DNA from: Streptococcus oralis subsp. tigurinus
Lineage (GTDB): Bacteria > Bacillota > Bacilli > Lactobacillales > Streptococcaceae
Assembly: GCF_002356415.1 (NCBI RefSeq)
Contig: NZ_AP018338.1
Coordinates: 868,001 to 932,000 of the forward strand
Length of the DNA stretch: 64,000 bases
Direction of reading: 5' to 3'
Shown piece after piece: positions 46,009 to 52,075 of this stretch (positions within the stretch are counted from its first letter, which is position 1; each line of letters opens with the position of its first letter). Under the pieces are notes generated by a model. The model did no database searches. It was given only the letters and a program-made list of their open reading frames with translations, and was not told the DNA's origin. Position numbers and translations under genes: made by a program.

Positions 46009-46818
46009 ATGAGTGAAAAAGGCTTTAAATACAGTATTTTAGCATCAGGTTCCAGTGGAAATTCCTTTTATCTGGAAACCCCAAAAAAGAAAATCCTAGT
46101 GGATGCGGGCTTGTCTGGTAAGAAAATTTCAAGTCTGCTAGCTGAAATCAATCGCAAACCTGAAGATCTGGATGCGATTCTGATTACGCATGAGCACTCA
46201 GATCATATCCATGGGGTCGGTGTATTGGCTCGTAAATATGGTATGGATCTTTACGCCAATGAAAAGACTTGGCAGGCTATGGAGAATAGTAAGTATCTTG
46301 GCAAGATAGACTCTTCACAAAAGCATATTTTTGAAATGGGTAAAACCAAAACCTTTGGTGATATCGACATTGAGAGTTTTGGTGTTAGCCATGATGCGGC
46401 AGCACCACAGTTTTATCGTTTTATGAAGGATGATAAGAGTTTTGTCATGTTGACTGACACAGGTTATGTTAGTGATCGTATGGCAGGAATTGTTGAAAAT
46501 GCGGATGGTTACCTCATCGAGTCCAACCACGATGTAGAAATCTTACGAGCTGGATCTTATGCTTGGCGACTCAAACAGCGTATCCTATCTGATCTCGGTC
46601 ACCTTTCTAACGAAGACGGTGCTGAGGCCATGATTCGTGCCATGGGAAATCGTACCAAGAAAATCTACCTTGGCCACTTGTCCAAAGAGAACAATATCAA
46701 GGAGCTGGCTCATATGACCATGGTCAATCAGCTAGCCCAAGCTGATCTGGGAGTCGGAGTAGACTTTAAGGTTTATGATACCTCACCAGATACCGCAACT
46801 CCATTAACAGATATATAA
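46009..46818 (+). CDS. vicX: MBL-fold metallohydrolase VicX (WalJ/YycJ)
   Basis: A 269-residue metallo-beta-lactamase-fold protein; the homologue YycJ/WalJ of other Firmicutes is reported as an exonuclease in mismatch repair. Seen: ASGSSGNSFYLET at the start, metal motif THEHSDHIHGVG near 60-71, TDTGYV near 140, and LGHLSKENN near 222. It ends in a terminator that is nearly identical to the one closing the restriction-like island. Confidence 0.94.
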   Translation: MSEKGFKYSILASGSSGNSFYLETPKKKILVDAGLSGKKISSLLAEINRKPEDLDAILITHEHSDHIHGVGVLARKYGMDLYANEKTWQAMENSKYLGKIDSSQKHIFEMGKTKTFGDIDIESFGVSHDAAAPQFYRFMKDDKSFVMLTDTGYVSDRMAGIVENADGYLIESNHDVEILRAGSYAWRLKQRILSDLGHLSNEDGAEAMIRAMGNRTKKIYLGHLSKENNIKELAHMTMVNQLAQADLGVGVDFKVYDTSPDTATPLTDI

Positions 46819-46842
46819 AAAAGAAGGCGAGTGCCTTCTTTT
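46817..46842 (+). terminator. Terminator after vicX (left copy of a repeated hairpin)
   Basis: AAGAAGGC-GAGT-GCCTTCTTTT, preceded by A residues. A 26-base copy differing only in the loop (GAGA) lies at 52050-52075 after the restriction-like island. Confidence 0.9.
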
Positions 46843-46925: not shown

Positions 46926-48800
46926 ATGACGATAGATATTAGTGAAGAAAAGTTGGCTTTGGAGTCTGCTGACTTATTAAAAATTCTTTTAAAAGATCGA
47001 ACGACAAAGAAAAATATTGTTTGGGCAACGCATTCTTATGAATTGTTGGGAAAGGGATTTGCTTCAAGTGACCGCATTACTCCAAGTAGGGTGACGGGAA
47101 ACTATGCAAACTTGATTCAACCCCGATCAGAAAAGTCCAAGTATGAACAAAAAGACCGAACCAAGATTAGAGCCGAAGTCTTTACGCCAACTTGGTTGGT
47201 TGAAAAGCAAAATGGCTACGTGGAAGCTGAACTTGAAGCTCTAGCTCTTGAAGATTATATCCAAGTCCGCTGGCTAGAAATCACCTGTGGTGAAGCACCT
47301 TATATGGTTTCTCGCTATGATACAGTGATTGGTGAGGAAATTCCATTATCTGAGCGAGTTGGTTTTCTTGATAGAAAATTGCAACGCATTAGTCGTGAGG
47401 TCTCAGATGAAGCCACCTTCTATAAGCTTGTAAAAAAAGCTTATCGATCTTCTTATGGATATGAGTATCAAGGAGATTCTCTGCTTTTGGCGCGTGAAAA
47501 TCTTTTAGCAACATTTGAGGACTACTATCTTGCAAAGACTGGCAATCAACCGACCTTAGAGCAAAAGAAAGAAATTGCGACTATTATATCCTACAATGTC
47601 TTTCAGATGGATGGACTGAAAAAAATTAGTCCTTACTCAGCTACACAAGAGCAATCTCAACAACTAAGCTTGTTTTCAGATGAGCTAGAAGTTCAAGAAG
47701 TAGAAGAATCTAAAACCCAAATCAAAAACTGGAAAAAGAATAAAATGATAGGTTTTGAGAGCCTATCAAGCGAGGAAAGTGAAATGAAATTTGATGTCGT
47801 GATAGGAAATCCGCCGTATCAGGAAGAATTACAAGGGACAAGTGATAAACCAATATATCATCATTTCATGGATGAATCTTATAAGATTAGTAGAAAATCA
47901 GTATTAATAACACCTGCTAGATTTTTATTTAAAGCTGGGAAAACACCAAAATCATGGAATGAAAAAATGCTGTTGAATGAACATTTCAAAGTCATGTATT
48001 ATGTTCAAGATTCTTCAAAAGTTTTTCCTGGTACGGATATTAAAGGCGGAGTAACGATTAGTTACCATGATAATGATAGAGTTTTTGGAGCAATAAAAAC
48101 ATATACTCCTTTTACTGAATTGAATGAAATCTTACAGTTAGTTATTAACCATAAAATTTTTAAACCAATTACTCCGATTATTTATTTACAAAATAAATTT
48201 AATTTAGATGCTGTTTATAGTGATTATCCAGAGTTGCGGTTTGTTATTGGTAGTGATGGAAAAGAGAAACGTCTTACTACATCAATTTTTGAACAACTTC
48301 CATTATTTACAGATATAACACAATCAGATGATGATATTAAAATACTAGGACTAATCAAAAATAAACGTCAGTATAAATATATAAATAAAAAATATATTGA
48401 GAAACATGGAAATTTGAATAAATATAAAGTATTGTTACCTAAGTCCAATGGGAGTGGGGCGATTGGCGAAGTCCTATCGACCCCACTCGTGGGTACCCCA
48501 CTCGTGGGTTATACACAATCTTTTATTTCTTTTGGTAATTTTGATTTAGAAGTTGAAGCTGAAAACTGTCTAAAATATATTAAAACAACATTTTGTAGAA
48601 CATTGTTAGGGACTCTTAAGATTACTCAGGATAATAATAAAGATACTTGGCAAAATGTCCCTCTCCAAGACTTTACGGTCAATTCGGACATTGATTGGAC
48701 ACAATCAGTGGCTGATATTGACCGCCAGCTCTATCAAAAATATGGTCTTTCTCCAGAGCATATAGCTTTTATTAAAATACATGTGAAGGAGATGGATTGA
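46926..48800 (+). CDS. Eco57I-like N6-adenine DNA methyltransferase
   Basis: A 624-residue gamma-class adenine methylase of the Eco57I-like type. Motif X is VFTPTWLV near 85-92; motif I is ITCGEAPYM near 119 (degenerate but placed correctly); motif IV is NPPY at 295-298, in DVVIGNPPYQEE. The C-terminal third (about 370-620) should be the target-recognition part; it is AT-rich and contains a 15-base tandem repeat (TPLVG twice). A ribosome-like AAAGGTTG precedes the ATG, and a promoter (TATAAT, about 46892) lies upstream. It overlaps the helicase gene by one base. Probably modifies DNA for the adjacent nuclease. Confidence 0.88.
   Translation: MTIDISEEKLALESADLLKILLKDRTTKKNIVWATHSYELLGKGFASSDRITPSRVTGNYANLIQPRSEKSKYEQKDRTKIRAEVFTPTWLVEKQNGYVEAELEALALEDYIQVRWLEITCGEAPYMVSRYDTVIGEEIPLSERVGFLDRKLQRISREVSDEATFYKLVKKAYRSSYGYEYQGDSLLLARENLLATFEDYYLAKTGNQPTLEQKKEIATIISYNVFQMDGLKKISPYSATQEQSQQLSLFSDELEVQEVEESKTQIKNWKKNKMIGFESLSSEESEMKFDVVIGNPPYQEELQGTSDKPIYHHFMDESYKISRKSVLITPARFLFKAGKTPKSWNEKMLLNEHFKVMYYVQDSSKVFPGTDIKGGVTISYHDNDRVFGAIKTYTPFTELNEILQLVINHKIFKPITPIIYLQNKFNLDAVYSDYPELRFVIGSDGKEKRLTTSIFEQLPLFTDITQSDDDIKILGLIKNKRQYKYINKKYIEKHGNLNKYKVLLPKSNGSGAIGEVLSTPLVGTPLVGYTQSFISFGNFDLEVEAENCLKYIKTTFCRTLLGTLKITQDNNKDTWQNVPLQDFTVNSDIDWTQSVADIDRQLYQKYGLSPEHIAFIKIHVKEMD
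48480..48509 (+). repeat. 15-base tandem repeat inside the methylase gene
   Basis: Two exact copies of ACCCCACTCGTGGGT, each self-complementary (CCCAC/GTGGG), lie in frame and encode TPLVG twice. Gain or loss of a copy would change the protein by five residues without a frameshift. Confidence 0.9.
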
Positions 48801-51800
48801 TGGTAGAAATTAAAACTTCTAAAGAGATTCATCCTAAAATCTATGCCTACACCACTCCTACGGTAACTAGTAATGAGGGCTGGATTAAGATTGGTTATAC
48901 AGAGCGTGATGTCACGCAACGGATTAAAGAACAAACGCATACTGCTCATATAGATACTGATGTCTTATGGACTGGGGATGCAGCCTATACGGAAGAACCT
49001 GATAAAGGAAAAACTTTTAAGGACCATGATTTCCACCATTTCCTTTCTTTTCATGATGTGGAACGTCGTCCCAAGACTGAATGGTTTTACTTTAATGGAA
49101 CTCCTGAAAAATCTAAAAATCTTTTTGATAAGTTTGTTCAGCATGATTTGTCAGGTTATCAGCCTGGTCAAGGACAGGACTATACCTTACGACAAGAGCA
49201 AGAAGAGGCAGTTTCTAAAACTTTAGCTTATTTCAAGAATCATCTAGGAGGTAAGTTTCTCTGGAATGCCAAGCCACGTTTTGGTAAAACCTTATCTACC
49301 TATGACCTAGCTCGTCGAATGGATGCTGTCAATGTCCTAATCGTAACCAACAGACCTGCAATAGCTAACTCATGGTATGATGATTTTGAAAAATTCATAG
49401 CTGGTCAAACGACTTATAAGTTTGTTTCAGAAACAGACAGTCTTAAAAATCGGCCAACCTTGTCACGAAAAGAATTTGTTGGTATTTTAGATGACGATGT
49501 AAGACAACTTGCTTTTATCAGTCTCCAAGACTTGAAAGGCTCTGCTTATCTTGGTGGAGAGCACAATAAACTCAAATGGGTAACCGACCTACATTGGGAC
49601 TTGTTGGTTATCGATGAAGCTCACGAAGGAGTTGCTACCTTCAAGACAGATCAGGCTTTTAATAAGATTCGTCGAAACTTTACCTTGCATCTATCAGGAA
49701 CTCCATTTAAGGCACTAGCTAAGGGAGAATTTACCGAGGAGCAGATCTACAACTGGTCTTACGCTGATGAGCAGGCAGCTAAAACAACTTGGTCACCTGA
49801 TCAAGAAGAGGAAAATCCATATGAGAGCTTGCCTCAGTTAAATCTCTTTACCTATCAAATGTCTCAGATGATTGGAGAGGAGTTAGAAAAAGGGGCTCAA
49901 CTCGATGGAGAGAACATCGACTATGCTTTTGACTTGAGTGAGTTCTTCGCAACAGATGATAAAGGGAAATTTATCCATGAGCAAGATGTCAGAAATTGGT
50001 TAGAGACTTTATCAAGCAATGAAAAGTATCCATTTTCAACCAAAGAACTTCGTAATGAACTCAAGCATACTTTGTGGCTCTTAGAACGTGTAGCCTCAGC
50101 AAAAGCCTTAAAAGTACTGCTAGAGGAACATCCCATCTATGAAAACTATGAGATTGTGTTAGCTGCTGGTGACGGGCGTATGTCTGAGGAAGATGATAAG
50201 GTTAAACTCAAATCCCTAGACTTGGTTAGAAAAGCGGTAGCAGAGAATGACAAAACCATTACCCTATCCGTCGGTCAATTGACGACAGGTGTGACGATCC
50301 CTGAATGGACAGGCGTATTGATGTTATCAAACTTAAAATCACCTGCCATTTATATGCAAGCTGCCTTTCGTGCACAAAACCCTTACTCATGGAGCGATAA
50401 CAAAGGAAATCACTTCCGCAAAGAAAGAGCCTATGTATTTGACTTTGCGCCAGAAAGAACCCTGATTCTCTTTGATGAGTTTGCGAACAACTTATCACTT
50501 GCGACTGCAGGAGGTGGTGGAACTTCCGCAACTCGTGAAGAGAACATCAGAGAACTCTTAAATTTCTTCCCTGTCATAGCAGAAGACCGTGCAGGTAAGA
50601 TGGTTGAAATTGATGCTAAGGCAGTTCTGACTATACCGCGTCAAATAAAAGCTAGGGAAGTCCTCAAACGAGGGTTTATGTCTAATCTCTTATTTGATAA
50701 TATCAGCGGCATTTTCCAAGCCAGTCAAACCGTTCTAGACATCTTAAATGAACTACCAGTTGAAAAGGAAGGAAAGTTACAAACATCATCGGATCTACTA
50801 GACTTTTCAGGTGTTACAGTGGATGATGAGGGCAATGCAGTGGTTGACCATGAAATCGTGGTCAATCAACAAGCACGACTTTTTGGTGAAAAAATTTATG
50901 GGCTTGGTGAGTCTGTTGCTGAATTAGTCACAAAAGATGAGGAAAGAACTCAAAAACAGCTGGTCAATGACTTGAGTAAGACCGTTTCTTCAGTAATTGT
51001 AGAGGAATTGAAGGCTGGATATGATCTGAAAACTCGGGAAACAGATCAAATCAAGAAACAAATTGCAGCAACATTTGAGAACGAAGTTCGAAAAAATGAG
51101 ATTGAACGTAAAATTTCTGAAGCTCATATCAAGGAAGAGTTGCAACAACAACTCAAGGAAACAAATGATAAGGAACAGAAAGATAAGATTCAAGAAGATC
51201 TTGAAAAACGTATAGAAGAAAATAATCTCATTCACAAAGAAAAACTAGAACAAACACTCAAAAATGAAGTGGAAAAAATGCCTGAGAAGTTCATCGAACA
51301 GGTTGAGATAAAACGTGTAGAGCAGTTGAAACAATCAGCTCAGGATGAGATTCGGGACCATCTTCGAGGATTTGCACGAACAATCCCTAGTTTTATCATG
51401 GCCTACGGTGATCAATCTCTAACACTTGATAATTTTGACATCTTTGTTCCTGAGCATGTCTTCTTTGAAGTGACTGGTATTACGATTGACCAATTTCGTT
51501 ATTTGAGAGATGGTGGGCAAGATTTTGCAGGACATCTCTTTGATCGAGCAACATTCGATGAAGCTATTCAAGAATTTCTTCGCAAGAAAGAGGAGTTGGC
51601 GGATTATTTTAAAGATCAAAAAGAAGATATCTTTGACTATATTCCACCACAAAAAACCAACCAAATTTTCACTCCTAAACGGGTAGTGAAGAGAATGGTG
51701 GATGACCTTGAAAAAGAAAATCCAGGAATCTTTGATGATCCGTCTAAGACATTCATTGATTTGTACATGAAGTCAGGTCTCTATATTGCAGAGCTTGTTA

Positions 51801-52051
51801 AGCGGCTATATAACAGCAATGGCTTGAAAGAAGCTTTTCCAAATCCTGAAGAACGCTTAAAACATATCCTAGAAAACCAAGTTTATGGATTTGCACCGTC
51901 CGAAATTATCTATAACATTTCCACTAATTTTATCTTTGGAAATCTCTCTCAAGATATCAGTAGAAAGAACTTTGTTTTAGAAGACACCATTCCAGCTGCC
52001 AAAGAAGGTAGGATTCAGGAATTGGTGGATAAATATTTTGAATATAATTAA
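48800..52051 (+). CDS. GIY-YIG nuclease / SF2 helicase / degenerate methylase-like protein
   Basis: A 1083-residue protein from ATG 48800, which overlaps the methylase stop (TGATG); AAGGAG is upstream. Domains in order: a T5orf172-type GIY-YIG nuclease at about 10-100 (YAY at 15-17, IKIGYT with Tyr33, Arg41, Glu94); an SF2 helicase at about 125-580 with PRFGKT at 159-164, DEAH at 272-275, SGTP at 299-302 and QAAFRAQ at 520-526; a Gln/Glu/Lys-rich coiled coil at about 690-850; and a C-terminal domain with FTPKRVVKRMVDDL (957-) and FIDLYMKSGLYIAEL (985-) like methylase motifs X and I but no NPPY. It is predicted to translocate on DNA and cut it. Confidence 0.87.
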   Translation: MVEIKTSKEIHPKIYAYTTPTVTSNEGWIKIGYTERDVTQRIKEQTHTAHIDTDVLWTGDAAYTEEPDKGKTFKDHDFHHFLSFHDVERRPKTEWFYFNGTPEKSKNLFDKFVQHDLSGYQPGQGQDYTLRQEQEEAVSKTLAYFKNHLGGKFLWNAKPRFGKTLSTYDLARRMDAVNVLIVTNRPAIANSWYDDFEKFIAGQTTYKFVSETDSLKNRPTLSRKEFVGILDDDVRQLAFISLQDLKGSAYLGGEHNKLKWVTDLHWDLLVIDEAHEGVATFKTDQAFNKIRRNFTLHLSGTPFKALAKGEFTEEQIYNWSYADEQAAKTTWSPDQEEENPYESLPQLNLFTYQMSQMIGEELEKGAQLDGENIDYAFDLSEFFATDDKGKFIHEQDVRNWLETLSSNEKYPFSTKELRNELKHTLWLLERVASAKALKVLLEEHPIYENYEIVLAAGDGRMSEEDDKVKLKSLDLVRKAVAENDKTITLSVGQLTTGVTIPEWTGVLMLSNLKSPAIYMQAAFRAQNPYSWSDNKGNHFRKERAYVFDFAPERTLILFDEFANNLSLATAGGGGTSATREENIRELLNFFPVIAEDRAGKMVEIDAKAVLTIPRQIKAREVLKRGFMSNLLFDNISGIFQASQTVLDILNELPVEKEGKLQTSSDLLDFSGVTVDDEGNAVVDHEIVVNQQARLFGEKIYGLGESVAELVTKDEERTQKQLVNDLSKTVSSVIVEELKAGYDLKTRETDQIKKQIAATFENEVRKNEIERKISEAHIKEELQQQLKETNDKEQKDKIQEDLEKRIEENNLIHKEKLEQTLKNEVEKMPEKFIEQVEIKRVEQLKQSAQDEIRDHLRGFARTIPSFIMAYGDQSLTLDNFDIFVPEHVFFEVTGITIDQFRYLRDGGQDFAGHLFDRATFDEAIQEFLRKKEELADYFKDQKEDIFDYIPPQKTNQIFTPKRVVKRMVDDLEKENPGIFDDPSKTFIDLYMKSGLYIAELVKRLYNSNGLKEAFPNPEERLKHILENQVYGFAPSEIIYNISTNFIFGNLSQDISRKNFVLEDTIPAAKEGRIQELVDKYFEYN

Positions 52052-52075
52052 AAAAGAAGGCGAGAGCCTTCTTTT
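52050..52075. terminator. Terminator between the restriction-like island and the thioredoxin-like gene (right copy)
   Basis: AAGAAGGC-GAGA-GCCTTCTTTT, with A residues before and T residues after, between converging genes. It differs from the 46817 copy only in the loop. Confidence 0.9.

Follow-up and report, generated by a model that had tools for sequence, protein, structure and literature searches.

A rearranged DrdVI-family gene pair predicted in a Streptococcus genome

The restriction-like gene pair described here lies in a window of 64,000 nucleotides (the whole stretch of DNA that was analysed), G000:C1:868001-932000 of a single-contig 1.889 Mb Streptococcus genome. It consists of an adenine methylase of 624 amino acids (P1, 46926..48800, forward strand) and a nuclease-translocase of 1083 amino acids (P2, 48800..52051, forward strand, with its ATG at 48800). 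The two genes are co-directional and share a single base at the junction TGATG, as an earlier note on this DNA had described. The pair is composed of four modules, namely A, a half-methylase with the usual acids of the S-adenosylmethionine (SAM) site; CAT, which holds NPPY and the recognition domain; KSG, a further half-methylase with K[ST]G as its first motif; and C, the nuclease-motor. P1 is an A-CAT fusion and P2 a C-KSG fusion, a layout written below as A-CAT / C-KSG, with hyphens for fusions and slashes between genes.

P1 matches Eco57I (Pfam, 1.3e-20) and carries NPPY at residues 295-298, in agreement with the Eco57I-like methylase proposed earlier. Module A (P1 1-281; 46926..47768, forward strand) is assigned from BLAST, motif columns and strands as an M1.DrdVI-like half-methylase. 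It contains motif X (EVFTP, 84-88), motif I (LEITCGEAPY, 117-126), the motif II acid (E180) and motif III (D229), with strands at 116-119, 176-180 and 225-227 of the P1 model. BLAST aligns P1 76-231 with the first gene of pDrdVI (27%, 1e-7), the Deinococcus wulumuqiensis 479 sequence reached by tblastn of plasmids, and matches module A to Pped_A (47%, 2e-80). Module CAT (P1 284-624; 47775..48800, forward strand), identified by BLAST, NPPY and strands, comprises the NPPY catalytic half and the target recognition domain. Its residues 287-624 match 201-535 of the second pDrdVI gene (27%, 1.7e-27, BLAST), and the P1 model places strands at 289-294, 322-330, 354-360 and 376-382. The joint between the two modules is marked by PADLOC, where two type II methylase models match P1 back to back with best stretches at 104-281 and 284-623. 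In the predicted structure, A and CAT compose a single methylase fold, and as this fold models as complete, P1 is likely the whole modification enzyme.

P2 begins with a T5orf172 / GIY-YIG-like domain (P2 1-110; 48800..49129, forward strand), assigned from Pfam, relatives and topology. T5orf172 is found in 28 of 42 aligned P2 family members, and Y15, K30, G32, R41 and E94 are invariant across 14 P2 N-termini. The matches to T5orf172 and MUG113, with no Mrr among the families listed, bear out the nuclease of non-Mrr type that had been suggested. The SF2 helicase-type motor (P2 127-575; 49178..50524, forward strand) is two-lobed, is identified by Pfam ResIII (6.6e-15), a fold match and conserved columns, and carries KPRFGKT (158-164), DEAH (272-275), SGTP (299-302) and QAAFRAQ (520-526). 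Nuclease and motor together (P2 9-633) match the third pDrdVI gene (34%, 7.5e-97, BLAST). The C-terminal KSG half-methylase (P2 941-1083; 51620..52048, forward strand) is recognised from residue counts, conservation, strands and a profile-profile match to module A (probability 97.4%, E 1.4e-11). It contains FTP (957-959) and DLYMKSG (987-993), has A1032 in place of the motif II acid, and lacks NPPY. Of the nuclease, helicase and methylase-like fusion proposed in the earlier note, the motor and the methylase-like end stand, while the nuclease is better called GIY-YIG-like, its T5orf172 match in P2 reaching 19.4 of 20 bits and staying under the Pfam gathering score. No recognition domain was recognised in P2, and no nuclease family was found at its C-terminal end at E up to 0.1. 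Sequence searches of solved structures returned nothing for P1 alone, P2 alone or the P1 profile, and UvrB only for the P2 profile. Rfam gave no match in the window or in L007, a related locus of Streptococcus sp. WB01_FAA12.

Every module of the pair is sequence-matched in DrdVI. M1-2.DrdVI is listed with GCAGCC, N6-methyladenine (6mA) and class IIG, and was cloned and expressed in E. coli (PMC6430315); the DrdVI nuclease gene is described as a translocase fused with a nuclease. DrdVI and the window share A, KSG, CAT and the nuclease-motor in a tight locus. The DrdVI layout is A / KSG-CAT / C, whereas the window has A-CAT / C-KSG; compared to DrdVI, the NPPY and recognition parts have changed partner and are joined to A, not KSG. 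The pair has the M1-like half-methylase, the M2-like NPPY and recognition module, and the fused nuclease-translocase of DrdVI, and departs from it in gene arrangement. Because layouts differ within the DrdVI family, we take arrangement as a variant trait and not a defining one. Judged by its sequence, P1-P2 is a rearranged member of the already named, though little described, DrdVI family, a split type IIG system. The split restriction-like pair of the earlier note stands. That note would count as refuted if the pair were already catalogued under a named restriction class, and for the family this is so, DrdVI being named in print. A single PADLOC model (REase_MTase_IIG) matches both P1 and P2 (2.9e-25 and 2.2e-25), which indicates that a one-chain form exists. 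PADLOC splits the family into a type II methylase and a type IIG enzyme, and defence surveys may count the parts apart.

To follow the arrangement across relatives, profiles for A, CAT, KSG, motor and GIY were built from six systems and scanned against 117 sequences, comprising the window, 5 plasmid loci, 80 genome-contig loci and 31 loci from searched genomes (the window's locus stands in this set three times, and L007 = L089, L008 = L103 and L009 = L099 stand twice). The layout of the window, A-CAT / C-KSG, was the most frequent with 52 sequences, followed by A / CAT / C-KSG with 21 and CAT / C-KSG with 13, many of the latter cut before A. A / C-KSG-CAT occurred six times, C-KSG alone five times, and A / C-KSG / CAT three times. 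A-CAT / C (3) and A / C (2) were both contig ends; A / KSG-CAT / C (DrdVI and Variovorax) and A / CAT / CAT / C-KSG accounted for two each, and eight layouts were single cases. The motor gene has at least 3 kb of sequence upstream and at least 1.5 kb after its end in 55 of the 80 genome-contig loci; all five profiles are present in 54 of these, the remaining one (L042) being without A and CAT. Within Streptococcus we found A-CAT / C-KSG, A / C-KSG-CAT (L117-L120) and A / C-KSG / CAT (L121-L123). A relative is encoded in 584 of 596 candidate genome-contig stretches, among the matches listed, and the DrdVI-type family is widespread.

The position of CAT was mapped on a quick tree of the motors from 106 loci, each having module A and a single CAT class; cut contigs, loci with two CAT classes and scraps were excluded. 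CAT position changes 18 times on this tree, compared to a shuffled mean of 37.8. Starred branches force at least nine changes of the state 'fused to A' and at least ten of 'own gene'. With the tree rooted at its midpoint, the KSG-CAT form would sit on the deepest branches. The tree holds duplicates (window = L001 = L087, L009 = L099, L014 = L122, L092 = L132, L093 = L133, L095 = L134 and L105 = L131, by shared sequence); the L014-L122 and L009-L099 motors are identical, L090 and L091 (G113/G120) are near-copies, and the long branch of L125, a cut fragment, is unreliable.

Several loci carry additional genes. An Abi_2 family gene (1.4e-40) stands between the P1 and P2 homologues at L007 6023-6973, a locus that shares sequence with that of G225 (P2 relative at C1:176392), and L008, L097 and L100-L104 have a gap of similar size at this point. 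At L049 5910-6980, CAT is separated from the nuclease-motor gene by a gene for a YhcG/DUF1016 PDDEXK nuclease, and an IS256 transposase gene lies at 2648-3832 of L004, a Bifidobacterium longum plasmid, between A and a CAT lacking the NPPY start. P2 relatives also occur in the phage records MT835780, MT835565, PV036449, MK250019 and MK250029, three of them from human faeces; the motors in two Lak phages are distant (24% identical).

Conservation along P2 was compared over 35 rows, each below 70% overall identity to P2. Mean values were 0.70 for the KSG core (941-1046), 0.34 for the KSG tail (1047-1083), 0.61 for the motor, 0.45 for GIY and 0.20 for region 661-850; besides nuclease and motor, the well-kept parts are 851-940 and KSG. 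In sliding windows of 106 residues the KSG core reached up to 0.71 and the best motor stretch 0.70. Conservation of the KSG core thus matches that of the motor at its best. K[ST]G is retained in 51 of 52 A-CAT / C-KSG loci (the exception, L093, reads KSA), which argues that parting from CAT did not relax KSG. Such conservation, together with a motif I acid at position 987 (D in 108 of 112 sequences, E in 3) and the direct fusion of KSG to CAT in the DrdVI, Pediococcus and Lysinibacillus layouts, would fit KSG as a second active or regulatory half that binds SAM or a ligand, such that P2 senses the cofactor or completes the methylase and modification needs both proteins. We regard this as unlikely, as K replaces the first glycine of motif I in 112 of 113 sequences, the motif II acid is missing in all 116 distinct sequences, and in the P1 model CAT is paired with A, the half in which both acids are present.

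Measured by region against 128 relatives, the median identity of P1 is 0.93 in A, 0.71 in 284-385, 0.29 in 386-460, 0.54 in 461-545 and 0.78 in 546-624, so that 386-460 forms a hypervariable part within CAT. In L007 the P2 regions are 0.95-0.99 identical, yet P1 386-460 is only 0.23 identical. G+C drops from 0.408 in the window to 0.295 in P1 386-545. This is the pattern expected of a swapped recognition domain. A variable recognition domain next to a near-constant motor may also mean that gene transfer between streptococci is hindered. An invertible specificity switch was considered for L019, where a CAT stands on the opposite strand, and rejected: its inverted arms are short, with 75-79% complementarity, which speaks against recent inversion. 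Two CAT modules are present in L072, L078 and L019 (in L019, the copy at 1949-2863 is the one on the opposite strand), possibly as spare specificities.

The same variability bears on the reading that the system is worn out or orphaned, with P1 acting as an epigenetic regulator and cleavage by P2 lost. There is a precedent in DnmA of B. subtilis, for which this is proposed in the accessible part of PMC9973331, and decayed copies exist in the genus (in G127 the P2 gene is spread over two frames, and G229, G193 and G065 have stop-containing scraps of the KSG end). In the window, however, neither gene is broken, the aligned relatives conserve the nuclease, motor and NPPY residues, and in several relatives the recognition domain varies while its partner stays constant, as active restriction would give. 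We hold decay to be quite improbable here.

We consider it probable that P1-P2 works as a rearranged DrdVI-family pair in which P1 methylates and P2 is predicted to dock, translocate and cut. Within an asymmetric site, P1 would mark one strand of the cell's own DNA by methylating a single adenine. The KSG module on the nuclease-motor would be a copy of A without catalytic function, holding P2 on the methylase and recognition module by docking; the KSG-CAT contact would be covalent in KSG-CAT layouts and would form in trans in the window. An unmethylated site would start the P2 motor, ATP-driven translocation would proceed along unmarked DNA, and the GIY-YIG-like domain would cut upon the meeting of two complexes. 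Type ISP enzymes cut when two translocating complexes meet, and the predicted translocation and collision-triggered cutting by P2 are carried over from them by resemblance. The same modules in differing gene arrangements point to a hand-over between marking and cutting, which we predict as likely. For enzymes of ATP-dependent restriction it is a central question how the methylase bound at its site gives way to the nuclease that translocates, and the natural fusions of CAT to one half-methylase, the other or neither are ready-made separation experiments on this hand-over. More speculatively, CAT might serve two rival partners, methylating the site with A and licensing the nuclease-motor with a SAM-blind KSG; marking versus cutting would then be a half-methylase exchange, with one or the other pairing repeatedly frozen by fusion. 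We think this rather unlikely.

Several points weigh against P1-P2 as a marking and cutting pair of the kind we favour. M1 and M2 of DrdVI were cloned together, which gives no sign of a separate need for A, and motif I of module A reads CGEAPY in the lineage of the window where CGSGxF is the usual form. The whole of KSG (941-1083), with its variable 37-residue tail, equals the motor at 0.61 each, so conservation alone does not single it out, and KSG may bind SAM or another ligand. The GIY-YIG call combines a sub-threshold Pfam match in P2 itself with relatives and invariant residues, and a search of the Protein Data Bank (PDB) with the GIY domain profile gave no GIY-YIG structure; its two weak matches, Mfa2 fimbrial subunit (0.0086) and RIB57 (0.11), were taken as chance. 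L131 does not follow the swapped-domain pattern, with even 0.80-0.81 identity across P1 1-545. Finally, DnmA-YeeB-YeeC of B. subtilis, a looser analogue, gave no phage protection in its authors' tests; deletion of dnmA and yeeB in Vibrio crassostreae reportedly makes the cells more sensitive to some phages (both from the accessible part of PMC9973331).

The pair is flanked by two direct 26-bp terminator-like repeats found by pattern scan and stem-loop, one at 46817..46842 after the vicX-like gene and one at 52050..52075 between P2 and a convergent thioredoxin-like gene (neither assigned to a strand). Upstream of P1, Pfam identifies genes for a histidine kinase and a protein of metallo-beta-lactamase fold, which we take to be VicK and VicX; the thioredoxin-like assignment downstream is also from Pfam. 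At six empty sites, the stretch matching the left flank and the one matching the right flank have 33-41 bases in common, at the terminator-like sequence. The best 100 and 98 rows for the vicX-like and thioredoxin-like genes gave 84 same-contig pairs. Among the matches listed, 76 pairs lay within 10 kb, 39 of them less than 60 bp apart, 26 at 60-3999 bp and 11 at 4 kb or more, and all 11 of the last contain the P1-P2 system, broken in G127. In 26 genomes the vicX-thioredoxin interval is filled by other inserts of 0.9-3 kb, most of them near 0.9 or 1.4-1.6 kb.

Of 284 same-genus genomes, 63 have a P2 relative (E 1e-30, counting every layout and also scraps) and 53 a P1 relative (E 1e-40). The close form stands beside vicX in 16 of 20 genomes, among the matches listed, which do not include vicX rows for G190 and G210; it lies elsewhere in G073 and G007. 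L126-L129 are scraps left of P2's KSG end, 86-93% identical, and three of the four contain stops. Their genomes have no complete copy of this form (G231 has a 62% copy elsewhere); the scraps of G229 and G065 are far from vicX.

Compared to known systems, the best solved relative of P2 in Foldseek is the type ISP enzyme LlaBIII (E 2.2e-14, 1037 columns), consistent with the type ISP resemblance noted earlier. LlaGI and LlaBIII appear to share with P2 a motor followed by a methylase fold; the fold matches span the motor-coupler-methylase order of type ISP, although their rmsd along the whole length is large. LlaGI and LlaBIII are single chains with an Mrr-type nuclease and without the extra half-methylase, whereas the window has two chains; nuclease type and two-chain layout rule out plain type ISP membership. 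That a type ISP relative was merely split in two, with a changed nuclease, is highly improbable: a simple split would give one half-methylase pair, but the window has both A and KSG as N-terminal halves, each module has its match among the DrdVI genes, and no type ISP chain was reached by P1 or P2 sequence profile searches of solved structures. The type III Res protein carries a C-terminal PD-ExK nuclease; type III (Mod/Res) membership was rejected, as P2 ends in the KSG half-methylase.

In the literature searched, the papers on this family are the DrdVI papers only. By description, MaeIV (M1-M2.MaeIV, Methanococcus aeolicus) is among the closest known systems (PMC10113651, accessible part). 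Btr188ORF1790/Btr188ORF1760 of Bibersteinia trehalosi, likened to the window by description only, has an M1.DrdVI-like N-terminus, an M2.DrdVI-like C-terminus and a GIY-YIG gene, and is described as fragmented and inactive (PMC4996451, accessible part). OspHL35III and DnmA-YeeB-YeeC, which we read as one group, resemble the window in having a methylase with target recognition domain, a translocase/helicase and a GIY-YIG or T5orf172 protein, and differ in their three proteins, MmeI-like methylase and unfused nuclease and motor, both of which are joined in P2 (accessible parts of PMC4752239 and PMC9973331). Module shuffling is undescribed in this literature, taken without REBASE and supplements and partly in excerpt, except for the B. 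trehalosi remark and a general sentence in PMC4752239. According to that sentence, type IIG-like systems generally come from varied permutations of endonuclease, methylase and translocase domains.
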